DNA of 64,000 nucleotides. Origin: Belliella buryatensis. GTDB lineage: Bacteria > Bacteroidota > Bacteroidia > Cytophagales > Cyclobacteriaceae. A program made the translations under genes and the position numbers. The DNA lies in assembly GCF_900188245.1 (NCBI RefSeq), contig NZ_FZOK01000006.1:124001-188000 (forward strand), written 5' to 3'. How positions within the stretch are numbered: position 1 is the first letter of the stretch; each line of letters opens with the position of its first letter. The notes below the pieces were generated by a model. The model was not told the origin of the DNA. It searched no databases and saw only the letters and a program-made list of their open reading frames with translations. This document shows, one piece after another, positions 34,795 to 47,206 of this stretch.

Positions 34795-35739
34795 TTATTC
34801 TAATATCATGCTAAGGACGGCTTGTGCCGAATAGATTCTATTTTCAGCCTGTTTTTGAACTAGACTTCTCTTTCCATCTAAAATTTCATCTGACAGCTCT
34901 ATGTTTCTTCTTACAGGAAGACAATGCATTACTTTGGCTTGAGGCGCTTTATTGAGATGAGTCTCTCTAAGCATCCAAGCTGGATCTGTAGTAAGAATTT
35001 TTCCGTAGTCATTGAAGGCAGACCAGTTTTTGACATAAACAAAATCGGCTTCCTCCAAAGCCTTTTTTTGATCATACTCAATATTGGCACCTTTAGTGAA
35101 CTTATCATCTAATTCATACCCTTCTGGATGGGTAATTGTTAAGTCATGCCCACATCCTAATGTCCACTCTGCAAAAGAATTAGCTACTGCATGTGGGATG
35201 GCTTTGATATGTGGAGCCCATGTGAGAACCACTTTAGGTTTTGTGCTTGAAAGTATATTTTCTTGAATAGTAATCATATCAGCCAAACTTTGTAATGGGT
35301 GCCTGATAGCACTCTCTAAAGAAATGACCGGAATACCTGAATATTTAATAAATTGATTGAAAATATAATCTTCAGAATCTTCTTTTTTGTCAACCAAGGA
35401 AGGAAAAGCTCTTACTGCTAGCACATCAAAATAAGTACCCATAACGGCTGCAGCGTCTTTGATGTGCTCCACTGTACCTTTATTCATGATAGCACCTTCT
35501 TTCATTTCCAAAGCCCAACCTTCCTTATCCATATTCATTACAATGGCTTCCATGCCAAGATTCATTGCTGCGATTTGCGTACTTGCTCTGGTTCTCAGTG
35601 ATGGATTTAAAAAAATACAACCCACACGCTTCCCTAGTCCTTTAGAGATATCCATTCGGGGATTATTTTTATAAGCTAGGGCTTTTTCGATCAATTGATC
35701 TGCTAATGGTCTATTTTCGAATTGGGTGAAATGATTCAT
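34795..35739 (-). CDS. argF': N-acylornithine carbamoyltransferase ArgF' (succinyl-type suggested)
   Basis: This 314-residue enzyme transfers carbamoyl from carbamoyl phosphate to N-acylornithine. Marks: NPSLRTRAST (carbamoyl-phosphate loop), HPLQSLADM (HPxQ motif) and MHCLPVRR. At the loop that sets acyl preference the sequence is NKGTVEHI, placing Val90 where Xanthomonas acetylornithine enzymes have Glu92 and the Bacteroides fragilis succinylornithine enzyme has Pro90. Replacing that Glu by small or hydrophobic residues is known to shift preference to succinylornithine, so N-succinylornithine is favoured by inference. A MITE separates it from argD. Confidence 0.9.
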   Translation of the reverse strand: MNHFTQFENRPLADQLIEKALAYKNNPRMDISKGLGKRVGCIFLNPSLRTRASTQIAAMNLGMEAIVMNMDKEGWALEMKEGAIMNKGTVEHIKDAAAVMGTYFDVLAVRAFPSLVDKKEDSEDYIFNQFIKYSGIPVISLESAIRHPLQSLADMITIQENILSSTKPKVVLTWAPHIKAIPHAVANSFAEWTLGCGHDLTITHPEGYELDDKFTKGANIEYDQKKALEEADFVYVKNWSAFNDYGKILTTDPAWMLRETHLNKAPQAKVMHCLPVRRNIELSDEILDGKRSLVQKQAENRIYSAQAVLSMILE

Positions 35740-35837
35740 GATAGTAAAGTTCCTAATGAAAGGATAGTGAATAGGTTGATTTGAAAGTTTTTCAGCTATA
35801 ATAGATTTTCTTACAATGATAATGATGTCTTGATTAT

Positions 35838-36006
35838 ATTTTAGAATATGATTATCCGCAATGACACCAGTAATTCAATAAAACGAAAGGATCAAGCGGA
35901 TAATCATCAACGGACGACGGTCGACAGTCGACAACATCTGAATTTAAGGTGTGTGCGTAATAAAATATGGTTACTGGTGCGAAAGCGGATATACATATTT
36001 TAGAAT
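35838..36006. repeat. 10-bp direct repeats flanking MITE copy 1 (target-site duplication)
   Basis: ATTTTAGAAT occurs at 35838-35847 and again at 35997-36006, immediately outside the 149-bp element. Copy 2 of the element has a different 10-mer at the same two places. Confidence 0.8.
35848..35996. mobile_element. 149-bp palindromic MITE-like element, copy 1 (inside the arg operon)
   Basis: The ends are imperfect 12-bp inverted repeats (ATGATTATCCGC at 35848-35859; GCGGATATACAT at 35985-35996). Inner inverted pairs are CACCAGTAA (35865-35873) with TTACTGGTG (35971-35979), and ATTATCCGC (35851-35859) with GCGGATAAT (35896-35904). The middle has two GTCGAC palindromes (35920-35925, 35927-35932). 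It matches copy 2 (45574-45722) at 134 of 149 positions by eye, in the same orientation. It has no coding capacity and must be moved, if at all, by a transposase elsewhere. It lies 16 bases from the argD stop and 108 bases before argF'. Confidence 0.82.
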
Positions 36007-36012
36007 AATGAT

Positions 36013-37152
36013 TTAAGCTAAAATTTTCTTTAAACTATCTAAAAACGAAGATAATTGATTTATTTCAATATTTAAAGGTGGAAGCAAACGAATTGTATGC
36101 TTTCCTGCCGAACTTCCTGTAAATATTCTGTAAATATTCACTAAATCAGAACGAATAGGGGCAGCTTCTTTTTCTAAATCTATGCCTATCATCAAGCCTT
36201 TTCCTCTAACGTCAGTTACACCAGCGATCATTGCTAATTCACGCATCAGATACTCACCCGATTTTAGGGCATGTTCTTGTAGGCTTTCCTTTTCAAGTAT
36301 TTCTAAGACTGCCAATCCAGCTGCACAAGCCAAATGATTCCCTCCAAAGGTGGTTCCTAGTAAACCGAAACTTGCTTTGATGTCTGGATGGATCAAAACA
36401 CCTCCAATTGGATAGCCATTCCCCATGCCTTTAGCCATCGTAATCATATCTGGAACAAGCCCTGTGACCCATTGATGCGCAAAAAACTTACCTGTTCTCC
36501 CATATCCTGATTGAACTTCGTCAAGAATCAATTTAGCATCATAGCTCTTACATAATTCAGAAAGTTTTAGGAGAAAACCAGGATTTGGAACTTGAATCCC
36601 ACCAACTCCCTGAATTCCTTCTATGATAATTCCTGCAATGTTCCCTTTTCGCAAAAGATTTTCCACTTCGGCAATTTCGTTCCAAGGTAAAATATGAAAA
36701 TCTGTTCGCTGATTGCTGGGAGCGATGATTTTCGGATTATCAGTCAAAGCTACTGCTCCTGATGTCCTACCATGAAAAGCACCTGAAAAAGAAATAAAGC
36801 CAGATTTTCCTGTTCCAAAAGAGGCTAATTTGAGCGCGTTTTCATTTGCTTCAGCACCAGAGTTACATAAGAATAGGTTAAAATCTGTGTAGCCAGAAAG
36901 CTCTCCTAATTTAGTAGCCAATTGTTTTTGAATCGGTATCTGAACAGAATTGGAATAGAAGGCGATTTGATCAAGTTGGTCTTTAATCCGCTGATTGAAA
37001 TGTGGATGTGAATGTCCCACAGAAATCACAGCATGACCACCGTACAAATCGAGATATTCAGCACCATTTTCATCCCAAAGTTTGGCTCCTTGTGCCTTTA
37101 CAGGAGTGACATTGATCAAAGGGTAAACGTCAAATAAATTCATCTCTCTCAA
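36013..37152 (-). CDS. argD: N-acylornithine aminotransferase
   Basis: This 379-residue PLP class III aminotransferase converts N-acylglutamate semialdehyde to N-acylornithine. Marks: NSGAEANENALKLA (PLP phosphate), GAFHGRTSGAVALT, LILDEVQSGYGRTGKFFAHQ (cofactor Asp and Gln region) and ITMAKGMGNGYPIGG with the Schiff-base Lys. It starts one base after the argC stop, so it is tightly linked. A MITE insertion follows it, then argF'. A second class III aminotransferase at 48601-49785 is not in an arginine context. Confidence 0.93.
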   Translation of the reverse strand: MREMNLFDVYPLINVTPVKAQGAKLWDENGAEYLDLYGGHAVISVGHSHPHFNQRIKDQLDQIAFYSNSVQIPIQKQLATKLGELSGYTDFNLFLCNSGAEANENALKLASFGTGKSGFISFSGAFHGRTSGAVALTDNPKIIAPSNQRTDFHILPWNEIAEVENLLRKGNIAGIIIEGIQGVGGIQVPNPGFLLKLSELCKSYDAKLILDEVQSGYGRTGKFFAHQWVTGLVPDMITMAKGMGNGYPIGGVLIHPDIKASFGLLGTTFGGNHLACAAGLAVLEILEKESLQEHALKSGEYLMRELAMIAGVTDVRGKGLMIGIDLEKEAAPIRSDLVNIYRIFTGSSAGKHTIRLLPPLNIEINQLSSFLDSLKKILA

Positions 37153-37153
37153 C

Positions 37154-38119
37154 TTAAAATGCGATACTCTTCAATTTTAAACCCAAATCTTCTTCCAATC
37201 CAAAAGCTAAATTAAAGTTTTGGACTGCTTGACCTGAAGCACCTTTGAGAAGGTTGTCTATAGCAGAATAAATCACCAATTGCCCTTGCTCTTTCTTGAT
37301 GTGAATGATGCATTTGTTGGTATTCACCACTTGCTTCAAATCAATGTCATTTCTCGAAACATGGGTAAATGAAGCATCTTTGTAGAATGCATCATACAAT
37401 TGGTATGCTTCCTCAAGTTCTCCATCAAAAGGAAAGTAGGAAGTAATCCAAATGCCTCTTGGGAAATTTCCTCTATAAGGAACAAAGAGCAACTCTGAAT
37501 TGAATTCAGGTTGAATTTGCAGGAAAGTTTGTTTGATTTCCTGAAGATGCTGATGGGTGAAAAGCTTGTAAACAGACATGTTGCTGCTTCTATAGCTAAA
37601 GTGTGAGGTTTCGGCTAACTTTTTCCCAGCTCCCGAACTACCTGTGATTCCAGAGATATGAACAGGATTTTTGATCCAATTTTTTACCACAGCAGGAGCA
37701 AGGCCTAGTTGAATCGCAGTAGCAAAGCAGCCTGGATTGGCTATTTTCTTCGCTGATTTTAATTTTTCAATATTAACCTCGGGAAGTCCGTAATGGAAAC
37801 CATTGCTTTCATCTCTAAAATCTGTACTCAAATCAATGATGACAGTATCATCAGAGAACTTGTATGTGTCTAGGAAGCCTTTGGTCTCGCCATGTGGCAA
37901 ACCTAGAAAAACAGCATCAATTCCATCTGTAGAAACTTGATCTGTAAATATCAAATCTGTATCGCCAATCAAATCAGGATGTATTTCGGCAACGCGTTTC
38001 CCTTTTTGGCTATTGCTATGAACATAAGTCAAGTTGACCATCGGATGATGGACCAAAAGTCTCAGTAATTCTCCACCCGTATAGCCCGCTGCACCGATAA
38101 TGGCTACATTAATTTTCAT
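37154..38119 (-). CDS. argC: N-acyl-gamma-glutamyl-phosphate reductase
   Basis: This 321-residue NADPH enzyme reduces N-acylglutamyl phosphate to the semialdehyde. Marks: VAIIGAAGYTGGELLRLL (nucleotide-binding start), FLGLPHGETKGF and the active-site KIANPGCFATAIQL, with catalytic Cys near residue 131. HISGITGSSGAGK and the histidine of LFTHQHLQEIKQ follow. It overlaps argG by 11 bases. Confidence 0.94.
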   Translation of the reverse strand: MKINVAIIGAAGYTGGELLRLLVHHPMVNLTYVHSNSQKGKRVAEIHPDLIGDTDLIFTDQVSTDGIDAVFLGLPHGETKGFLDTYKFSDDTVIIDLSTDFRDESNGFHYGLPEVNIEKLKSAKKIANPGCFATAIQLGLAPAVVKNWIKNPVHISGITGSSGAGKKLAETSHFSYRSSNMSVYKLFTHQHLQEIKQTFLQIQPEFNSELLFVPYRGNFPRGIWITSYFPFDGELEEAYQLYDAFYKDASFTHVSRNDIDLKQVVNTNKCIIHIKKEQGQLVIYSAIDNLLKGASGQAVQNFNLAFGLEEDLGLKLKSIAF

Positions 38120-39308
38120 GATCCTGCTTGTTTACTTGATGGAAAATAGCAGTTTGGTTGCCGAGAATTTTGGTAAATCCTTTGACATCTTGTGCGGTAT
38201 AACCTTTGTTCATCTCTCCATAACTTCCAAACTTGGAAGCCATCAAATCGTGCTCAGACTCTATTCCTATCAATTGGAAGCGGTAAGGATGCAGCATTAC
38301 TTTGACCTTTCCAGTGACAAATATTTGTGTATCTGCCAGAAATGCTTCTAGGTTCCGCATCACAGGATCTAGATAATGTCCTTCGTGCAGGTGATTGCCA
38401 TAGAATTCAGCTAGCTGATTTTTCCAGAAAGTCTGCCATTTGGTTAAAGTGTGTTTCTCAAGTAATTGGTGGGATTTGATGATAATCAAAGGTGCAGCAG
38501 CCTCAAATCCAACGCGACCTTTAATTCCAATTATCGTATCTCCCACATGAATATCTCTTCCAATTCCGAATGGAGCAGCCAATTCATTTACTTTCAATAT
38601 GGCATCAACAGGATTATCAAATAGGGTGTCATTGACACCAATCAATTCTCCCTTTTCAAAGATTAGGCTTATTTCTTCGGCTTTCTCCTTAGTAACCTGA
38701 GTAGGCCAAGCTGAGTCAGGAAGTGTTTGACTGGAAGTCAAGGTTTCCTTTCCTCCAACAGAAGTTCCCCAAATCCCTTTATTGATACTGTATGCAGCTT
38801 TTTCGAAGTTCATCGAAATGCCATGTTTTTTGAGATAATCGATTTCGGCTTCTCTGCTCAACTGAAGGTCACGGATAGGAGTGATGATTTCAATGTCAGG
38901 GATGATGGTTTGAAAAATCATATCAAAACGAACTTGATCATTTCCTGCTCCTGTACTTCCGTGTGCTACACATTTAGCACCGATTTTCTTTGCATAATCA
39001 GCAAGTGTTTTTGCCTGTAAAATTCTTTCGGCTGATACAGAAAGTGGATAAGTTTGGTTTTTCAAAACATTGCCAAATACCAAGTATTTGATGACTTCCT
39101 GGTAGTAAGTTTTGGTTACATCAAGAATCGTAAATGATGAAATTCCGAGACTCGCTGCTCTTTTTTCTGTTTCTGATAGTTCTTCATCAGAAAAACCTCC
39201 TGTATTGATCAGTACTGCGTGGACTTCATATCCAAGGTCTTTGCTAAGGTGAAGTGCACAAAAAGTGGTGTCTAATCCTCCGCTATATGCTAATACTACT
39301 TTTTTCAT
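38109..39308 (-). CDS. argG: Argininosuccinate synthase
   Basis: This 399-residue enzyme joins citrulline and aspartate with ATP. Marks: LAYSGGLDTTFC (ATP-pyrophosphatase loop, residues 5-16), CVAHGSTGAGNDQVRFD (about residues 112-128) and SINKGIWGTSVGG. It is the second gene of the operon, 33 bases after the GNAT gene, and overlaps argC. Confidence 0.95.
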   Translation of the reverse strand: MKKVVLAYSGGLDTTFCALHLSKDLGYEVHAVLINTGGFSDEELSETEKRAASLGISSFTILDVTKTYYQEVIKYLVFGNVLKNQTYPLSVSAERILQAKTLADYAKKIGAKCVAHGSTGAGNDQVRFDMIFQTIIPDIEIITPIRDLQLSREAEIDYLKKHGISMNFEKAAYSINKGIWGTSVGGKETLTSSQTLPDSAWPTQVTKEKAEEISLIFEKGELIGVNDTLFDNPVDAILKVNELAAPFGIGRDIHVGDTIIGIKGRVGFEAAAPLIIIKSHQLLEKHTLTKWQTFWKNQLAEFYGNHLHEGHYLDPVMRNLEAFLADTQIFVTGKVKVMLHPYRFQLIGIESEHDLMASKFGSYGEMNKGYTAQDVKGFTKILGNQTAIFHQVNKQDHEN

Positions 39309-39341
39309 TTTAAGATTTTTTGTAAGCTTCTGGCTTGTGGT

Positions 39342-40022
39342 TTAAAATAGGTTGAAGGTTTTATTCTTAGTTTTTTTGAGATTCAGCAAGACATATTTTT
39401 TCAATCTTGTCCAACGCTCAAAAAGCTTGATATTTTTCTTGAAATCATCTCGAAGGGCCAAGTCTTCATGCTGAATTTTTTGAGCCTTAGGTTCATAAAG
39501 CATAGCTGTACATAGGCAGTTTTGTCTGTTTTTGCTTTGCAGGATTTCAAAATTGACACAGCTTTGACAGCCTTTCCAAAACTGTTCGTCATCAGTCAGA
39601 TCGGAGTAAGAAACAGGAATATAACCCAATTCAGAGTTGATCTTCATCACTGCTGCGCCGGTTGTCAAGCCGAATATTTTAGATTCAGGATATTTGGTTC
39701 TGCTGAGTTTGAATATTTCTTTTTTGATCAAACGAGCAAGTCCATATTTTCTAAACTGAGGAGCGACGATAAGCCCTGAGTTGGCCACATATTTTCCATG
39801 GCCCCAAGCTTCGATGTAGCAAAATCCCGCCCATTCACCATCAGATGTGGTGGCGATCACAGCTTTGCCTTCCATCATTTTGGTCATGATGTATTCAGGA
39901 GATCTTTTAGCAATCCCAGTACCTCTGGCTTTTGCTGACTGCTCCATTTCATCCGTGATCATGGAAGCATAAATTGTATGTGCCTCCGTAGCTGGCCTGA
40001 TTATAAAAGAGTAATTGTCCAT
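39342..40022 (-). CDS. GNAT acyltransferase heading the arginine operon, probable N-acylglutamate synthase
   Basis: This 226-residue protein has a GNAT fold (ANSGLIVAPQFRKYGLARLIK is the acyl-CoA loop at about residues 81-101, and KINSELGYIPVSYSDL a later strand). After the fold, a Cys-rich segment GCQSCVNF...QNCLC (CxxC, 13 residues, CxC) may bind a metal. A Lys-rich tail ends the protein. As first gene of the arg operon, with no other argA or argJ in the set, it most likely makes N-acetyl- or N-succinylglutamate; the acyl donor is not shown. The assignment is by context. Confidence 0.72.
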   Translation of the reverse strand: MDNYSFIIRPATEAHTIYASMITDEMEQSAKARGTGIAKRSPEYIMTKMMEGKAVIATTSDGEWAGFCYIEAWGHGKYVANSGLIVAPQFRKYGLARLIKKEIFKLSRTKYPESKIFGLTTGAAVMKINSELGYIPVSYSDLTDDEQFWKGCQSCVNFEILQSKNRQNCLCTAMLYEPKAQKIQHEDLALRDDFKKNIKLFERWTRLKKYVLLNLKKTKNKTFNLF

Positions 40023-40397
40023 TGAGTGTATTGAAATAGACAGAGTGTTGACTCTTAGGTTAATTTAGAAATGATAGATTGTGGAAATAATGCTGATTGA
40101 GGTCGCCCACATAGGGCACCAAAAATTAAGATAGGGGCGTTGCCCTAAAGCTATTCCTAAATTCTCTAAGCGGAGATAAAAATAACAAAGCCATTGGACC
40201 CAAAATGTTTGGGACAATTGAAGAATAAGTTGCTATGTCTTTTTTACTGTACATGGTCTTTGTGTCAGCAAAGGTTACAAGTATTGAAACAATATGCAAA
40301 TTATTATATCAATAATTTAAAAATTCAAAGAATCTATTTCAGAATCAGAAACAAATAATTGATGTTCTTTTAGTATTTGAAAAAGATAAACTACCTC
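40023..40397. other. 375-base AT-rich gap with two small GC hairpins
   Basis: No gene is seen here. It should hold the arg operon promoter, but no clear TAnnTTTG was found. Two adjacent hairpins stand out: GCCC-ACATA-GGGC (40105-40117) and GGGC-GTT-GCCC (40135-40145). The 'GGGGCGTTGCCCTAAAGCTATTCC' type of text, given here only by its coordinates 40134-40157, resembles short repeats often met in Bacteroidota genomes and may be a decayed one. Confidence 0.45.
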
Positions 40398-40553
40398 CTA
40401 AAATATAAAAAGCATCAATAAAAAGATTGCTAGCAATACAGCTACCCAAGCGTATATCGGATTTCGACGGGGGAATTCAAAGTTGCAGATTGGACAAAAA
40501 ACAGCTGTTTTATCTACATCCATGGCACAGGAAGGGCACTCTTTTGTTTTCAT
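40398..40553 (-). CDS. 51-residue zinc-ribbon membrane protein
   Basis: This gene is below usual length cut-offs. The frame begins MKTKECPSCAMDVDKTAVFC and has two CxxC pairs (Cys6/Cys9 and Cys20/Cys23), the form of a small zinc ribbon. A basic turn (PRRNP) and one C-terminal membrane helix (about residues 33-51, AWVAVLLAIFLLMLFIF) follow. Thus the ribbon should face the cytosol with the helix in the inner membrane. It is divergent from the DsbA-like gene 56 bases away. The partner is unknown; similar small ribbon-helix proteins are common as uncharacterised products. Confidence 0.8.
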   Translation of the reverse strand: MKTKECPSCAMDVDKTAVFCPICNFEFPRRNPIYAWVAVLLAIFLLMLFIF

Positions 40554-40609
40554 ATTTTTGAACTCTTGGTGTTGAAATTTGATTGTAATGGCAATAAAAC
40601 CTAAAAATC

Positions 40610-41320
40610 ATGAAAATAGAAATTTGGTCGGATATCATGTGTCCTTTTTGTTATATCGGCAAGAGACGATTGGAATCTGCTTTGGAGAATTTTGAGTATA
40701 AAAACAATGTTGAAATCGTCTGGAAAAGCTTTTTGCTCAATCCAGATATGAAAACAGACCTTAGCAAATCTACCGCTGAATACTTAGCAGAAACCAAAGG
40801 TTGGAGCATAGAACAAACCCATCAAATCACCAATCAGGTAACAGAAATGGCGAATGGTGAAGGTTTGGTGTACAACATGGACAAAACTGTAGTCGCCAAT
40901 GCGAAGAATGCACATCGCTTGTTACAACTTTCAAAAACCTTAGGAAAAGGTGATGAAATGAAAGAAAGGTTATTGAAAGCCTATTTCACAGAGGGGAAAA
41001 ACATCGATGATTTCGCAACATTGGTGTCTTTGGCAGAAGAAGTTGGTCTTGAAAAAGAGCGTGTTGAAACTTGCTTGAATTCAAAAGAATTTGCAGAGAA
41101 TGTCGAACAGGATATCCTTGAGTCTCGACAAATAGGAGTGAGGGGAGTTCCGTTTTTTGTGTTAGACAGAAAATTTGGCATTTCAGGTGCTCAACCTGTT
41201 GAAGTTTTTGAAGATACTTTGAATAAAGCTTGGGCTGATTTTGTAAAGGAAAACCCGATTCTCCAAATGGAAAATGGTGACCAAGGTAATGCTTGTGACA
41301 TCGATGGGAATTGCGATTAA
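40610..41320 (+). CDS. DsbA-family oxidoreductase, FrnE-like
   Basis: This 236-residue cytosolic protein (no signal peptide) has the thioredoxin-type motif CPFCYIGKRR (Cys11 and Cys14), a helical insertion (residues about 60-150) and the cis-proline loop GVRGVPFFVLD. FrnE-like proteins catalyse disulfide exchange or isomerisation, and some act in stress resistance. Near the C-terminus GNACDIDGNCD adds two extra Cys. It ends at a strong terminator and is monocistronic. Confidence 0.9.
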   Translation: MKIEIWSDIMCPFCYIGKRRLESALENFEYKNNVEIVWKSFLLNPDMKTDLSKSTAEYLAETKGWSIEQTHQITNQVTEMANGEGLVYNMDKTVVANAKNAHRLLQLSKTLGKGDEMKERLLKAYFTEGKNIDDFATLVSLAEEVGLEKERVETCLNSKEFAENVEQDILESRQIGVRGVPFFVLDRKFGISGAQPVEVFEDTLNKAWADFVKENPILQMENGDQGNACDIDGNCD

Positions 41321-41323
41321 AAG

Positions 41324-41358
41324 AAAGGCTTTTGGAACTATCTCCAAAAGCCTTTTTT
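41324..41358 (+). terminator. Terminator after the FrnE-like gene
   Basis: Arms AAAGGCTTTTGGA (41324-41336) and TCCAAAAGCCTTTTT (41343-41357) with a short loop and T run. Confidence 0.9.
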
Positions 41359-41459
41359 ATTGAACATTAATATCTGCTTTTATTCAGTAGTTAAATCAAT
41401 GATGCAAATAGCAGTTTTGAAACATTACTAACTAATTTACTGATAACCAAAAAACAATA

Positions 41460-42371
41460 TTAATATGTCCCATATACTTTCATTCTAATTTTATAAACTG
41501 CTTCTGATGCCGTGATAAATAAGGTCTTGCGATCAGGACCTGCAAACACCACATTAGCAGTCCATTTTTCAGGAACTGGTATGTGACCGATTTCTTCACC
41601 TTTTCGATTATATATCTTCACTCCATCTTCTCCTGTCAGGTATAAATTTCCTCGATAATCTATGGTCATTCCATCTGACCCTCTATTTATGAAAACCTCT
41701 TTATTAGTTAGAAAACCATCTTCGATTATATCGTATTTGTAAACTTTTTCGGCACCTAAATCTGCTACATAGAGTGTTTTGCCATCATAAGTTCCTACGA
41801 TGCCATTTGGTTTCATTAGTTTGTCATCAACTCTCATGAATTGTAGCCGATCAGCTGATAGCAGATATAAGTGTTCTCCATTTTGTTCTGACACCGCATC
41901 TCTTGTCCAATATTCTCTCTTGTAGAGTGGATCCGTGATGTACATGGTGCCTGAAGGAGTAATGAAAAGATCATTAGGACCATTTAATTTTTTGCCTTGG
42001 TAAGCCTCCAATAGGACAGTTTTATTTCCTTTATCATCAATAGACCATAATTGATTATTTTCATCTGCGCAAGCTATGATATTTCCTTCTCTATCCATAA
42101 ACATGCCGTTTGAGCGTCCTGCGTCTTCCATAAAAATCTCAGTTTTATTGGTGAAAAAAGACCATTTAATAATCCTGTTATTGGGTTGATCTGTGAAGTA
42201 AACATCTCCTAGCCTAGAAACTGCTGGGCCCTCTGTGAATCCAAAGCCATCAGCAATTTTCTCAAGCTGAGCATTTTTTTCGATAAGGTTTTTTTTATCT
42301 GCGATTTGAGCTTGGGAAGTACCCAACGAAAGGGATAAAAAAATAATGACACTAAATATTTTACGCTTCAT
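41460..42371 (-). CDS. Exported SMP-30/gluconolactonase-like beta-propeller
   Basis: This 303-residue protein has a signal peptide ending TSQAQ. Six-bladed propeller repeats are visible (EGPAVSRLGDVYFTDQPNNR, SNGMFMDREGNIIACADE, NGPNDLFITPSGTMYITDP, PNGIVGTYDGKTLYVADL, GSDGMTIDYRGNLYLTGE). The metal-site Glu, Asn and Asp fall in the usual places of the family (EGP, NGPNDL, PNGIV). It probably hydrolyses a sugar lactone in the periplasm. It is divergent from the AbgT gene. Confidence 0.9.
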   Translation of the reverse strand: MKRKIFSVIIFLSLSLGTSQAQIADKKNLIEKNAQLEKIADGFGFTEGPAVSRLGDVYFTDQPNNRIIKWSFFTNKTEIFMEDAGRSNGMFMDREGNIIACADENNQLWSIDDKGNKTVLLEAYQGKKLNGPNDLFITPSGTMYITDPLYKREYWTRDAVSEQNGEHLYLLSADRLQFMRVDDKLMKPNGIVGTYDGKTLYVADLGAEKVYKYDIIEDGFLTNKEVFINRGSDGMTIDYRGNLYLTGEDGVKIYNRKGEEIGHIPVPEKWTANVVFAGPDRKTLFITASEAVYKIRMKVYGTY

Positions 42372-42448
42372 TTGATATGTGATTTATGACAGGTGAATTA
42401 TTTTTCTTTGCAAGATAGGATAACGAGCCTGTTTTTTCTAATTCTATA

Positions 42449-42478
42449 TTGTAAATGCCTTCGAGCTTGTTATTTTTG
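42449..42478 (+). promoter_or_regulatory. Promoter of the AbgT transporter gene
   Basis: TTG (42449-42451), a 19-base spacer and TATTTTTG (42471-42478) are a full match to the Bacteroidota promoter consensus, 20 bases before the ATG. Confidence 0.72.
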
Positions 42479-42498
42479 GCAAAGCCCAAGTATGAATT

Positions 42499-44052
42499 AT
42501 GGAAAAATTTGAAGAAAAGAGTAAATCCACTTTAGATAGGTTTTTGGATTTTATAGAAAAGGCGGGAAATAAATTGCCTGACCCCGCCATGCTTTTTTTG
42601 ATTTTATTACTGATCACTTGGGGGCTTTCCGCGATTCTAGCTCCGATTAATTTCAACGCATTTGATCAGATGAAAGGTCAAGAAATCCGAGTAATCAACT
42701 TATTAACAGGAGAGAAGCTTGCAGCATTTCTTTCAAATATGATTGCCATTTTTATCAATTTCCCACCTTTGGGAGTAGTCTTACTTGCTATGTTGGGTGT
42801 GGGGGTGGCTGAGCACTCTGGTTTTATCAATGCTGGATTGAAATATCTACTTGGAGTTACGCCAAAGATGCTCCTTACACCTATTTTGGTTTTGGTTGCC
42901 ATAGTTAGCCATACAGCGGCTGATGCTGGATATGTGTTAGTTATTCCGCTTGGAGGAGTGATATTCTATGCTGCAGGTAGACATGCTGTTGCTGGAATAG
43001 CAGCCGCATTCGCGGGAGTATCGGGTGGTTTTAGTGCCAATTTCATCCCCTCAAGTATCGACCCATTGATTCAAAGCTATACACAGTCAGCTGCCCAGAT
43101 TATTCAGCCAGACATTTCGTTGAATCCACTTAACAACATTATTTTTACTGGAATATCAAGTATGATTGTTATAGCTGTTGTATGGTATTTGACAGATAGG
43201 GTAATAGAACCTCGATTAAACAAAAACCTTAAAATAGATGAGAATATAGTTGATATTCCTAAAATGGAATCGCTAAGCTTAAAAGAAAAAAGAGCTTTTT
43301 GGTTAGGGTTTTCTACTTTGTTGATAGGAGTGATTTTGTTATTCTTTTGGGTATTGCCAGAAGATTCTGCTATGAGAGATGCTGAAGGTGCAATTACTTC
43401 CCGTTATGCTCCATTGATGGCTTCTATTGTTCCTTTGATTTTTATTCTTTTCTGGATCCCTGGGTTGGTTTATGGCTTTGCCAGTGGTGCCTATACTACG
43501 ATGAAAAATATGGTAGAGGGTATGAGTAAGTCGATGGGGAGTATGTCTCATTATATTGTTATGGCATTTTTCTGTGCTTTATTTATCAATGCTTTCACGG
43601 AGTCGAAAATTGGGAGCATCGCAGCTTATAAGGGTGCTGAGTTTTTACAATCTTTGGGATTGCCTGCTCAAATTACTATAGTTGGTATTGTGATTTTAAC
43701 GGCTGTTGTAAATTTGTTTGTAGGATCTGCTTCGGCTAAATGGGCACTTATCAGCCCGGTATTTGTGCCTATGTTGATGCAATTGGGTATTTCACCGGAC
43801 CTTACACAGGCTGCCTATAGAGTAGGTGATTCTGTATCTAATATCATTACACCACTTTTGCCTTATTTTCCTCTGATTGTAGTATTCTGTCAAAAATATG
43901 TCAAGTCTACAGGTATTGGTACGTTGGTTTCGATTATGATACCATATTCACTGACCTTATTGGTAGTTTGGACATTGTTCCTTTTGTTATACTGGACTCT
44001 TGGGATTCCGTTGGGACTACAGTCAACTTATGAATTCGAAATGGTAAAATAA
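42499..44052 (+). CDS. AbgT family transporter
   Basis: This 517-residue inner-membrane protein has about 12 helices. AbgT marks include NKLPDPAMLFLILLLITWGL near the N-terminus, HTAADAGYVLVIPLGG, FAGVSGGFSANF-type glycine/serine re-entrant residues and NLFVGSASAKWALISPVFVPM near the C-terminus. Members take up p-aminobenzoyl-glutamate or export sulfonamide-like antimetabolites; which applies is unknown. It has its own promoter and stands alone. Confidence 0.9.
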   Translation: MEKFEEKSKSTLDRFLDFIEKAGNKLPDPAMLFLILLLITWGLSAILAPINFNAFDQMKGQEIRVINLLTGEKLAAFLSNMIAIFINFPPLGVVLLAMLGVGVAEHSGFINAGLKYLLGVTPKMLLTPILVLVAIVSHTAADAGYVLVIPLGGVIFYAAGRHAVAGIAAAFAGVSGGFSANFIPSSIDPLIQSYTQSAAQIIQPDISLNPLNNIIFTGISSMIVIAVVWYLTDRVIEPRLNKNLKIDENIVDIPKMESLSLKEKRAFWLGFSTLLIGVILLFFWVLPEDSAMRDAEGAITSRYAPLMASIVPLIFILFWIPGLVYGFASGAYTTMKNMVEGMSKSMGSMSHYIVMAFFCALFINAFTESKIGSIAAYKGAEFLQSLGLPAQITIVGIVILTAVVNLFVGSASAKWALISPVFVPMLMQLGISPDLTQAAYRVGDSVSNIITPLLPYFPLIVVFCQKYVKSTGIGTLVSIMIPYSLTLLVVWTLFLLLYWTLGIPLGLQSTYEFEMVK

Positions 44053-44070
44053 AAGCTTTTCAAGTGAAAT

Positions 44071-45456
44071 TTATTTTAGTATGAAGATTGAATCTAGGTT
44101 TATTTTAGGTAGGTAGCTTCTTAGGATGTATTTACTTTCTTGATATGGTTTTACGCGTTGAATCATATCTAGCAACCCTGTTGGATATTGGACACTTAGT
44201 TCTTTTTCAATAAATGTATATCCCGAAAACATTCCATTTTCAAATAATAAAGCTGCTTCTTCATTTTGGTGTCTACCCATTGTTTTGATGAATAGGATTT
44301 TTTCTTCTCTCGCTATTTTTTCTAACCACTGATTAGCTCTGATATTATATTTTTCGGGCACTTCTTGGTTACAACAAGCCCCTCTACATTTGTTGTGTTC
44401 AAAATCATAGCAAGCTGATTTTGTTTTTTGTACACCTGAGAGCTTAGGACAAAGTTCATATTCAGTAATTCCGTCATTTAGAAACTTCCAAGCATCAGTA
44501 TGGTTTTCAAATTGTATGATCGAAGGTTGAGAAGAAGTCACCTTGGAAACTTGAAATCTTACAAAACCTAGACTATCATGATATTGGATAATTCCCCAAG
44601 GTTGACTGATGAATTTCTGTGATATATTATATTTAGGCCAAGTTCTTTTTATTTCTTGTAGCTCTAAGAGATAAGCTAACATTTCGCTTCCTGTCAAAAC
44701 CCAAGAGATGTCGTGGACCTCATTTTTCATTTCCATTTTTTGTTGTCCTTTGCTTGCACCTGAAAAGTGACTTTTGAATCTACTTTTGATATTATTTGCT
44801 TTACCGATGTAGATTATTTTGTGATTTGCATCATAAAAATAATAGATACCCGTTTTTTCGGGAAGCTGCTGATACTTTTCCTTAGAAATATTTGGTGGTA
44901 AAAATGCTTCTCCATTATTTTTTCTGAGCATTTCAGATATTAGGTTGAAATTACTGGATGCTATTTTAGAAAGAATAATCGCTGTAGCTTTGGCATCCCC
45001 ATAAGCTCGATGTCGTGCTTCTATTTTAATGTCTAAATGTTCACACAACCTTCCTAAGCTATAAGACTTATAGCCAGGAAAGGCTTTTCTACTTAATCTC
45101 ACTGTACAAAGCTTCGGTGTATTCAAATGAATATTTTGGTGTAAAAGTGCCTTTTGGAGAAAGGTATAATCAAAACTGACATTATGTGCTACGAAAACTC
45201 TGTCTTTCAATATCATATAGATTTCTTCAGCTATTTCTGAAAATATGGGTGAGTCTGATATCATCTCAGTATCAATACCCGTCAAACCTGTGATGTAAGC
45301 AGGGATTTGTGTCTCCGGGTTAATCAGGGTTTGATAGCTATCTGTTATTTTTTCACCATCGAAGATCAATATAGCTATCTCTGTTATACCGCGCCCAGCT
45401 GCTGGATTTCCACCAGCAGTTTCTATATCTACAATTGCAAATTCTTGGCCTTTCAT
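44071..45456 (-). CDS. DnaQ-like 3'-5' exonuclease fused to a GIY-YIG nuclease domain
   Basis: In this 461-residue protein, residues 1-165 are a DEDDh exonuclease (AIVDIETAGG with Asp/Glu, VAHNVSFDYTFL and RHRAYGDAKAT with the catalytic His and Asp). Residues about 195-280 are a UvrC-type GIY-YIG domain (TGIYYFYD, KIIYIGKANNIKSRFKSHF). A further C-terminal region has several Cys (CPKLSGVQKTKSACYDFEHNKCRGACCNQ), partly like the UvrC Cys-rich area. Related Cho-like fusions act in DNA repair. It is convergent with AbgT and ends 18 bases away. Confidence 0.9.
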   Translation of the reverse strand: MKGQEFAIVDIETAGGNPAAGRGITEIAILIFDGEKITDSYQTLINPETQIPAYITGLTGIDTEMISDSPIFSEIAEEIYMILKDRVFVAHNVSFDYTFLQKALLHQNIHLNTPKLCTVRLSRKAFPGYKSYSLGRLCEHLDIKIEARHRAYGDAKATAIILSKIASSNFNLISEMLRKNNGEAFLPPNISKEKYQQLPEKTGIYYFYDANHKIIYIGKANNIKSRFKSHFSGASKGQQKMEMKNEVHDISWVLTGSEMLAYLLELQEIKRTWPKYNISQKFISQPWGIIQYHDSLGFVRFQVSKVTSSQPSIIQFENHTDAWKFLNDGITEYELCPKLSGVQKTKSACYDFEHNKCRGACCNQEVPEKYNIRANQWLEKIAREEKILFIKTMGRHQNEEAALLFENGMFSGYTFIEKELSVQYPTGLLDMIQRVKPYQESKYILRSYLPKINLDSIFILK

Positions 45457-45563
45457 GTTATAAAATTAATAAATTCAATTTTGTGCATTGTTTCAACTGA
45501 CAGTATTTGTCATTGTTTATTTAGTTTCACATGGGTTTCTAGTAACACTTCCAAAAATTAAAA

Positions 45564-45732
45564 ATATGTAAATATGATTATCCGCAATGACACCAGTAAT
45601 TCAATAAAACGAAAGAATCAAGCGGATAATCGTCGACTGATGACGGTCGACCGTCGACAACAGCTGAGTTTTAGGTATGAGTCTAATAAAATATGGTTAC
45701 TGGTGTGAAAGTGGATATACATATATGTAAAT
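45564..45732. repeat. 10-bp direct repeats flanking MITE copy 2 (target-site duplication)
   Basis: ATATGTAAAT occurs at 45564-45573 and at 45723-45732, immediately outside the element. It differs from the 10-mer at copy 1, as expected for duplication of two unrelated target sites. Confidence 0.8.
45574..45722. mobile_element. 149-bp palindromic MITE-like element, copy 2
   Basis: It has the same length, orientation and layout as copy 1, with 15 differences in 149 positions. Terminal inverted repeats are ATGATTATCCGC (45574-45585) and GTGGATATACAT (45711-45722). Inner GCGGATAAT is at 45622-45630. Differences cluster in the centre and right third, where CGGTCGACCG forms a self-complementary core. 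The outermost 41 bases on the left are identical. Confidence 0.82.
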
Positions 45733-45868
45733 AACCATTTTTTAGGCTTCTAGTACAATGTATTGTTTAGTTAATTCTAGTGAATAAATTTACATTTAGT
45801 GAAACATATTCTTTTAATTTACTGTTTGATGTATATACATGTAATTTTCATATTGACTATCTGAAATA

Positions 45869-47206
45869 ATGAAACAAGTTCCTATAATTTCTCTCCAAGA
45901 AGCCGCTGAATTGGTCAAGGATGGAGATGTTTTACTTCAAGGAGGATTTGGGATGACTGGCAACCCAGTGCACTTGATGCACGCTCTGGCAAAGACAACG
46001 ACAAAAGACTTGACCTTTATTGGGAACAATGTAGGTGAACCTGGAATAGGAGGAGGAAGGCTTTTGAGAAATGGGCAGATTAAAAAGATGATCGGTTCTT
46101 TTTTTACTTCCAATCCAGAAGCAGTCAAAGCCGCTCAAGAGGGCAAAGTAGAATTTGAGTTGATTCCTCAAGGGTCATTGGCTGAGGCCATCCGAGCTGG
46201 TGGGGCTGGAATAGGAGGTTTTTATACTCCTACAGCAGAGGGAACTGTGATTGCTGAAGGAAAAGATGTGAAAGAAATAGATGGGGTGAAACAGGTATTT
46301 GTCAAAGGGATCAAAGGTGACGTAGCCTTCATTCGTGCTTGGAAAGCAGATACCGCTGGCAACCTTCAATATCGCTTGACAGAGCAAAACTTCAACCCAG
46401 CCATGGCTACAGCAGCTAAGATAGTCATTGCAGAAGTGGAAGAAATTGTACCTGTTGGAGAGCTTGATCCCAATTATATCCATACCCCAAGCTGTTTTGT
46501 GGATTATTTGGTAGAAGTGAAGTTGACAGAAGAGGATTTAGGATCCTCAGCCAAGGTGGGCAGTTCAGAAGATATTCCAGCTGATCGAATGTTGATTGCC
46601 AAAAGAGCTTTAAAAGAATTACAGAAAGGTGATGTGGTCAACTTGGGCATAGGAATTCCTACCTTAATTGCCAATTTGATCAGTCCTGAGGATGGTATCA
46701 TCATGCATTCGGAAAATGGAATGTTGGGAATTGGTCCATCTCCCAAGGAAGGTGGCGCTATGGATTACCCTGTCAACGCGGGTAAAATTCCTGTTACGGC
46801 TTTACCCGGTTCATCCTACTTTGATTCTGCTGCATCTTTTGGTATGATCAGAGGAAAGCATGTAGATGTAGCTGTGATGGGCGGCTTGGAAGTAGATGAA
46901 GTAGGAAATTTGGCCAATTGGGCTGTTCCAGGAAGACCACTTTTAGGAGTTGGTGGAGCCATGGATTTGGCTTCTGGGGCTAGGAAATTGATTGTGACGA
47001 TGAACCATACATCACCCAAAGGTTCCAAGATCGTGAAATCATGTAACTTGCCTTTGACAGCTAAGGCATCAGTGGATATGGTGATTACGGAGTTGGCGGT
47101 GTTTGAATTTATCAAAGGGAAATTGACCCTAACGGAACTGATGCCAGGCGTGAGTTTGGAAGAAGTGAAGAAGAATACTGAGGCGGATTTTGAAGTTAGA
47201 TTGTAG
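45869..47206 (+). CDS. Fused alpha-beta CoA transferase (SCOT/3-oxoacid type)
   Basis: The 445 residues contain both subunits of a class I CoA transferase in one chain. The alpha part (about residues 1-235) has [30 protein letters not shown] and [13 protein letters not shown]. The beta part (about 240-445) has [13 protein letters not shown] and [10 protein letters not shown], whose Glu carries the covalent CoA intermediate. These enzymes move CoA from succinyl-CoA or acetyl-CoA to a 3-oxoacid. The thiolase gene 156 bases downstream suggests a shared degradative route, either a beta-ketoadipate type or acetoacetate use. Confidence 0.9.

Follow-up and report, generated by a model that had tools for sequence, protein, structure and literature searches.

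The window analysed here, a stretch of 64,000 nucleotides of Belliella buryatensis, carries two segments of almost the same sequence in different gene neighbourhoods, raising the question of what they are and how they came to lie there. A preliminary description, made from the letters alone, read them as two copies of a new palindromic family of miniature inverted-repeat elements (MITEs). They belong to a MITE family that is new but of an established type, and its target duplication, at 10 bp, is unusually long. Judged from their sequence, these non-autonomous elements were very probably moved in trans by an IS1595-family transposase whose own insertion sequence (IS) has the same ends.

Structure and Position of the Two Copies

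Both elements are 149 bp long and agree at 134 of 149 positions, exactly as first described, coordinates included (Table 1). Copy 1 occupies a 273-bp gap between two minus-strand genes. Blastn of this copy against the whole window (E up to 0.01) matched these two places only, in keeping with the two copies initially counted, and the window has no tRNA that could point to tRNA-linked integration.

Table 1. Features of the two MITE copies and their surroundings (positions in the window)
Feature	Position	Strand	Remarks
MITE copy 1	35848..35996	+	149 bp; empty site in B. pelovolcani
MITE copy 2	45574..45722	+	149 bp; absent in B. pelovolcani
Left 10-bp target site duplication, copy 1	35838..35847	+	ATTTTAGAAT
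Right 10-bp target site duplication, copy 1	35997..36006	+	
Left 10-bp target site duplication, copy 2	45564..45573	+	ATATGTAAAT
Right 10-bp target site duplication, copy 2	45723..45732	+	
Left terminal inverted repeat, copy 1	35848..35872	+	A-type end
Right terminal inverted repeat, copy 1	35972..35996	-	B-type end
Internal inverted copy of end decamer, copy 1	35896..35905	+	GCGGATAATC
Internal inverted copy of end decamer, copy 2	45622..45631	+	
7-bp-period core tract, copy 1	35905..35932	+	four units, each ending AAC or GAC
7-bp-period core tract, copy 2	45631..45658	+	
Ornithine/aspartate carbamoyltransferase gene	34795-35739	-	one border of copy 1 gap
Class-III aminotransferase gene	36013-37152	-	other border of copy 1 gap
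Exonuclease/GIY-YIG gene	44071-45456	-	one side of copy 2
CoA-transferase gene	45869-47206	+	other side of copy 2

Regarding the ends, the imperfect 12-bp inverted repeats, ATGATTATCCGC on the left and ATGTATATCCGC on the right (reverse complement), match at 10/12 positions in copy 1 and 9/12 in copy 2, and the inverted repeat reaches about 27 bp, with 20 of 27 positions matching in each copy. The term palindromic holds for these ends and not for the remainder of the element. Outside the duplications, the flanks of the two copies are unrelated, as had been noted, being identical at 31/100 and 32/100 positions. The adjoining 10-mers had been taken as common to both sites; instead, each copy is bracketed by its own perfect 10-bp direct repeat, ATTTTAGAAT at copy 1 and ATATGTAAAT at copy 2. 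These repeats are target site duplications. The first reading had missed them, and the parent insertion sequence and the 7-bp core repeats had likewise gone unseen.

Target Site Duplications and Empty Sites

The duplication has a fixed length of 10 bp. Flank identity over 91 Belliella end pairs, of which L005 (196 bp) is evidently an artefact, is highest at exactly 10 bp, with a mean of 76.9% vs 45.8% (SD 1.4%) in shuffled pairs; it is modestly raised at 9 and 11 bp and at the control level at 7, 8, 12 and 13 bp. Some copies have poor duplications, such as L005 and L047 (3/10 each) and L044 (2/10). The targets are AT-rich, with the preference A-W-W...W-W-T.

Four places were compared with B. 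pelovolcani, in which one copy elsewhere in the genome (C30:157889-158037) has a base-clean empty site and window copy 1 a clear one, thus supplying the empty-site alleles proposed as a check. At window copy 2 and at L003 the element is also absent, within diverged flanks where the junction is not base-exact.

Copies in the Genome and in Related Species

A search of the genome, in which 40 of 52 candidate matches were scored, so that copy numbers are lower bounds, revealed at least 18 near-full copies with sharp ends, 88-100% identical over 142-149 bp and far above chance, besides decayed ones. Neither confinement to the two window places nor membership in a conserved gene feature was seen, the two outcomes named beforehand as speaking against a MITE. 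At least nine copies, the query copy included, are 97-100% identical to the query copy, which points to a recent spread. Seventeen of the 18 are intergenic, and 17 have no spanning open reading frame of at least 100 aa, the eighteenth having a 100-aa frame that starts inside the element. At 149 bp, the element is too short for a transposase and carries no such gene of its own.

The element was also matched in six of seven congeners and in none of 51 genomes outside Belliella, in a cross-genome scan that scored up to 14 candidates per genome; other scans scored up to 40 per genome, and copy numbers from all of them are lower bounds. With a longer query, a match of end length (29 bp at 93%) was found in the neighbouring-genus genome G008, and the matches listed for other Cyclobacteriaceae include elements whose ends are the same. 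Possible long autonomous elements were considered at six places with a match of some 25 bp (L023, L024 and L027 in this genome, L032, L033 and L038 in congeners) and rejected: no transposase was seen by eye among frames of at least 80 aa within 1.5 kb, and L024, L027 and L038 contain diverged elements of about 150 bp.

Fold, Internal End Copy and Core

The predicted folds are more stable than those of shuffled sequences on both strands of both window copies (z -3.0 to -3.8). Together with the intergenic position of nearly all copies, this stability would suit extragenic palindromes of the REP/BIME type that depend on a RAYT (IS200-like) transposase for their movement, or a selectively maintained structured RNA or regulatory element. 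Such an origin is nevertheless extremely improbable, as the inverted ends are paired in all four predicted folds and account for their stability, no known RNA family of Rfam matched at the gathering score in window positions 35000-46500, and the copies have exact 10-bp target duplications and empty sites. To our knowledge, neither of the latter is expected for REP sequences.

Besides its two ends, the element carries the end decamer once more, inverted, in its interior. The sequence GCGGATAAT, with at most one mismatch, was found in this region in 73 of the 91 Belliella end pairs (55 exact) vs one of 91 shuffled interiors. As a possible second right end, the internal copy bounds a single 60-bp stretch of L111, with a 7/10 flank match. 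The elements form a size class of about 150 bp across genera, with a core of 7-bp period. The 121 elements analysed had been preselected for duplications of at least 7/10 and a length of 125-175 bp, and some Belliella copies among them may be counted twice, as the sequence collections overlap; the periodicity was tested on a subset of 43 interiors made non-redundant. A requirement of the core for movement is weakened by the 93-bp L139 and the 87-bp L199, which lack it and carry 9/10 duplications. Nor is the 7-bp repeat private to the element, as seven of eight extra genome regions look by eye like free-standing tracts; the eighth, L322, looks like a decayed element.

Candidate Parent Insertion Sequence

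A transposase-bearing relative sharing the ends of the element, proposed as a check, was found in the form of an IS1595-family insertion sequence. The candidate parent in the same genome (G000:C19:231286-232323) is 1,038 bp long, has ends like those of the MITE and a perfect 10-bp duplication, ATTGATTAAT, and its transposase gene is split over two frames. The transposase matches PF12762, PF12760 and NF033547 (IS1595 family transposase), the last on two pieces in this genome (3.3e-36 and 6e-14, the second alone being under the curated cut-off). Intact relatives are present in sister species, as seen in B. calami, where an open 310-aa frame is 89% identical to the query transposase piece; the B. 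calami protein matches the IS1595-type DDE domain PF12762 (DDE_Tnp_IS1595) at 9.1e-21 and the N-terminal zinc ribbon PF12760 at 8.1e-06. In this genome, none of seven matches at about four places is a full-length open transposase frame, and the MITE is therefore probably stationary here now; the query was a 227-aa piece, which leaves room for a more distant intact transposase.

Among 15 distinct Belliella IS end pairs, an unfiltered count that enters L084 and L104a as the single copy they are, the duplication is 10/10 in nine, 9/10 in two and poor in four (L076 and L079, 7/10; L087 and L091, 5/10), and both open-frame B. calami copies fall among the latter. The 8-bp duplication usual for the IS1595 family is thus not seen here, as the MITEs have no excess at 8 bp and the insertion sequences mostly have 10 bp.

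Compared by blastn with the Belliella insertion sequences, the element matches at its ends only, the closest matches being 25-26 bp at 88-92% and 24-37 bp at 78-83%. The interior has no significant similarity to them beyond the internal end copy of 12-15 bp. Consequently, the MITE did not arise from them by mere internal deletion, and it is the ends and the duplication length that connect the two. This unshared interior, as well as the lack of a full-length open transposase frame among the matches in this genome, could be expected if a different transposase moved the MITE and its ends resembled those of the IS1595 type through convergence or shared host sites. That case is very improbable, considering that the A-type and B-type forms of the end, about 25 bp each, are both common to MITE and IS, that the duplications of both are 10 bp, and that in B. 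aquatica a MITE and an insertion sequence have one 10-bp spacer in common.

Neighbouring Elements 10 bp Apart

Adjacent elements are spaced exactly 10 bp apart at all nine exact-motif sites. At L048, three neighbours of differing sequence and length (149, 143 and 144 bp) follow each other in this way, and at L077 an insertion sequence lies 10 bp from a MITE. Closely similar pairs, such as the two related copies at L029, could also stem from a single insertion that recombined or was duplicated in tandem, and need not reflect separate insertions into the same target; for the stacking as a whole this is rather unlikely, since duplication alone does not yield the unlike neighbours of L048 or the mixed pair of L077.

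Proposed Movement and Comparison with Known Systems

The dispersed copies, 10-bp duplications, empty sites and insertion sequence with the same ends support the initial reading of a MITE family. From the shared ends and the duplication length, we infer mobilisation in trans. The transposase of an IS1595-family (ISXO2-like) insertion sequence, about 1,035-1,040 bp long and sharing these ends, would bind both ends of the MITE and make a cut staggered by 10 bp in AT-rich targets (A-W-W...W-W-T), and the 10-bp direct repeats would result from repair of the gaps; movement may follow a cut-and-paste or a copy mode. More speculatively, the Cyclobacteriaceae might have an IS1595-type branch with a 10-bp stagger that inserts preferentially into the duplication flanking its own elements, stacks unlike subfamilies 10 bp apart and sustains long-lived MITEs of about 150 bp, with the core and the third end copy possibly kept for movement, e.g., through DNA length, bending or host-factor binding.

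In the portion of PMC8101967 available, the IS1595 family comprises the groups ISPna2, ISH4, IS1016, IS1595, ISSod11, ISNwi and ISNha5, with a target duplication of usually 8 bp, and the related Merlin elements have GG tips; the IS1016 elements have duplications of 7-9 bp in the available portion of PMC12561309. The Belliella parent resembles the family in its size of about 1 kb, single transposase gene and PF12762/PF12760/NF033547 matches, and its elements share AT-rich targets with ISApl4 (same portion of PMC12561309). However, its duplication is 10 bp, the tips are ATG instead of the GG of Merlin, and the third catalytic position, judged by eye, seems to be taken by N (H-x-A-I-S-N-L-K). As in bacterial type II MITEs, the elements are short and non-coding, have terminal inverted repeats and target duplications, occur in many intergenic copies and share their ends, though not their interior, with a parent, but they differ in their own sequence, in the size class of about 150 bp across genera and in the 7-bp-period core. 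BrickBuilt, a Porphyromonas gingivalis MITE with a 23-nt minisatellite, is likewise a Bacteroidota MITE with tandem repeats inside it that vary in number; according to the available portion of PMC4596501, it has IS5-type ends, a 23-nt unit and short, uneven duplications, whereas the Belliella element has IS1595-type ends, a 7-bp unit and 10 bp. Among the titles and abstract openings searched, no description of the element, or of MITEs of Belliella or Algoriphagus, was found.

With this finding, a bacterial family that had none in the literature searched gains a defined MITE-IS pair, and the IS1595-type target duplication is extended to 10 bp. In addition, it offers a countable case of elements that re-use one target beside their own ends, and the size class and 7-bp core make the length and core needs of a bacterial MITE testable.

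The Two Window Copies and Their Target Duplications

The two elements of the window are each 149 bp long and agree at 134 of 149 positions, reproducing both figures of the preliminary description, and the imperfect 12-bp terminal inverted repeats reported there were recovered with 10 of 12 positions matching in copy 1 and 9 of 12 in copy 2 (20 of 27 when extended). The flanks had been described as unrelated except for the neighbouring 10-mers. The first part holds, with 31/100 and 32/100 positions identical between the two sites, but the 10-mers are not common to both: each copy is bounded by a perfect 10-bp direct repeat of its own, ATTTTAGAAT for copy 1 and ATATGTAAAT for copy 2. Copy 1 occupies a 273-bp gap between class-III aminotransferase and carbamoyltransferase genes, both on the minus strand, and copy 2 is flanked by a divergent gene pair. 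The frame adjoining copy 2 joins exonuclease (RNase_T) and GIY-YIG domains.

Coordinates of the elements, the candidate parent and associated features
Feature	Location	Description
MITE copy 1	window 35848-35996	149 bp
MITE copy 2	window 45574-45722	149 bp
Frame adjoining copy 2	window 44071-45456	single frame
MITE compared with B. pelovolcani	C30:157889-158037	
Parent candidate	G000 (own genome):C19:231286-232323	1,038 bp, MITE-type ends
60-bp stretch	L111:318-377	
7-bp tracts (L323-L329)	G000 C15:102640-102727	
	G000 C15:104628	
	G000 C22:6234	
	G000 C24:24237	
	G000 C28:93715-93734	
	G000 C44:12798-12824	
	G000 C44:13547	

Regarding the duplication length, pairing of ends at distances of 110-220 bp within the fetched loci of Belliella yielded 91 end pairs, which were compared with a control in which flanks were shuffled among elements. 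Left and right flanks are 76.9% identical at length 10, against 45.8% (SD 1.4%) in the control, while identity at 7, 8, 12 and 13 bp stays at control level, so the target duplication is 10 bp long; a modest excess appears at 9 and 11 bp (44% vs 39% at each). Among the 40 pairs with a duplication match of at least 9/10, target position 10 is T in all, position 1 is A in 31, and positions 2, 3, 8 and 9 are A or T in 39, 39, 40 and 40, respectively.

Copies, Distribution and Empty Sites

Instead of only two places, copy 1 as query has at least 27 matches in the own genome (3.88 Mb, 52 contigs), with 40 of 52 candidates scored. At least 18 are near-full copies with sharp ends, spanning 142-149 bp at 88-100% identity, at least nine of them at 97-100% (query included), the remaining nine of the 27 being partial or more diverged. 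Seven of the 59 genomes searched matched the 149-mer, namely the own genome and six of seven other Belliella genomes (congeners), with none among 51 outside the genus; a longer query gave an end-length match (29 bp at 93%) in G008, of a neighbouring genus. A spanning ORF of at least 100 aa is absent from 17 of the 18 near-full copies, the exception being a 100-aa frame beginning at the element's own first base, and a neighbouring frame overlaps about 29 bp of the copy at locus L015.

Four MITE places were compared with B. pelovolcani, and empty-site alleles were found. The C30 place is intact there, its two flank matches (92-93% identity) overlapping by 8 bp, with one target copy and no element in the alignment. 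The place of window copy 1 is likewise empty, its flanks there enclosing a single target-like stretch. The element is also absent at the places of window copy 2 and of the L003 copy, where intergenic flanks are too diverged for a base-exact junction. The proposal of a mobile family is thus borne out by the 10-bp duplications, the near-full copies, the empty sites and a likely parent: this is a real, recently spread MITE family.

A Probable Parent Insertion Sequence of the IS1595 Family

The preliminary description had called for an autonomous relative with the same ends and a transposase. A mismatch-tolerant end search located left and right ends 1,038 bp apart on contig C19, bounded by the perfect 10-bp repeat ATTGATTAAT and encoding an IS1595-family transposase (PF12762, PF12760, NF033547). 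Its coding sequence is divided between two overlapping frames, of 227 and 104 aa. The 227-aa piece as query has seven matches at about four places in the own genome, none in a full-length open frame, and a more distant intact transposase there is possible. Transposase matches (E up to 0.001) occur in all eight other genomes (seven congeners and one neighbouring genus), being only fragments, interrupted frames or weak matches in G004, G005, G006 and G008. In B. calami a frame of 310 aa is open and shares 89% identity with the query piece, and the congener G003 (one contig, 4,196,595 bp) gave 20 matches, of which 15 fall in open frames of 283-334 aa. MITEs of this subfamily are few in G003, which has more parent copies than any other congener: there are at least two short matches to the 149-mer, with 14 of 36 candidates scored.

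Both Pfam domains are present in both open-frame proteins tested, and eight aligned open-frame proteins have EYDEA, TD and H-x-AISNLK blocks in common, as judged by eye. Some IS1595 subgroups are D-D-N, and these blocks suggest such a triad here.

Fifteen distinct Belliella insertion-sequence end pairs, 1,033-1,040 bp long, have duplications of 10/10 in nine, 9/10 in two, 7/10 in two and 5/10 in two. By blastn, the MITE matches insertion sequences only at its ends and at an internal 12-15 bp end copy; in the closest cases one side shares 25-26 bp (88-92% identity) and the opposite side 24-37 bp (78-83%), and other scattered matches are weaker (E near 1 or above). Ends and duplication length are thus common to both and interiors distinct, which fits a type II MITE whose parent is probably an IS1595-type element. 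Passages of one report give 8-bp duplications as usual for IS1595-family members (PMC8101967), and passages of another give 8 bp for ISApl4 and 7-9 bp for IS1016 elements (PMC12561309), whereas MITE and probable parent have 10 bp, a measured departure from these lengths.

Stacking at 10-bp Spacing

A search of 196 family genomes for back-to-back ends separated by 0 to 30 bp gave nine sites in five genomes (two of the three in G217 identical in sequence), each with exactly 10 bp between the ends; none lies in the own genome, and the reversed control gave none. When the end pattern was relaxed across all fetched loci, 14 distinct junctions within 60 bp emerged; ten of them show the 10-bp spacer, and the remaining four have spacers of 18, 37, 51 and 52 bp. 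Three neighbours of different sequence stand at this spacing in L048 (G006:C17), an insertion sequence and a MITE exactly 10 bp apart in L077 (G001:C21), and stacked elements, also exactly 10 bp apart, in L028 (G004:C30) and L029 (G002:C11). Such stacks are most simply read as successive insertions at one 10-bp target next to an element already in place.

Size Class and the 7-bp Core

In at least 109 named loci, pairing of ends at distances of 60-2,500 bp yielded 767 pairs among the matches listed. A flank match of 7/10 or better is present in 77 of them, including 35 of 149 or 150 bp, six of 143 bp and four of 1,040 bp. The listed loci come from Algoriphagus, Belliella, Litoribacter, Cognataquiflexum, Cyclobacterium and Rhodonellum, and from MAGs labelled Spirosoma fluviale, Cytophagales or Cyclobacteriaceae. 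Both shared ancestry and constraint may underlie the size class near 150 bp.

In region 50-100 of 43 non-redundant interiors, self-match at lag 7 is 0.435 vs 0.250 after block shuffling (z 18), with echoes at lags 14 (z 11) and 21 (z 5.6); an elevation is also seen at lags 3, 10 and 17 (z 4.8-6.3). A single A. faecimaris contig carries two elements, of 143 and 150 bp, whose lengths differ by one 7-bp unit. The end decamer recurs inverted inside the element (GCGGATAAT, at most one mismatch); this internal copy is present in 73 of the 91 Belliella end pairs vs 1 of 91 shuffled interiors. The core is not strictly needed, since elements of 93 and 87 bp without it have 9/10 duplications.

The L111 stretch runs from a left end to the internal end copy, and its flanks match at 7/10; it may be a mini-element in which the internal site serves as right end. 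Free 7-bp tracts (unit GTYGACN), by eye without MITE ends, also occur in the own genome; the two-unit pattern is found there 24 times forward and 22 reverse vs 1 and 0 in the reversed control, and the three-unit pattern in 5 of 118 order genomes, the control also matching in four genomes.

None of the papers listed by the literature searches names this element in its title or the opening of its abstract, ISfinder lying outside the search. BrickBuilt, presented in part of one account as a Bacteroidota MITE with an internal minisatellite (PMC4596501), likewise has an internal repeat core, so a MITE with such a core is not new as such. The element described here is of a known kind but represents a new family, and three of its traits are unusual: 10-bp duplications, 10-bp stacking, and a size class of about 150 bp with a core of 7-bp period.
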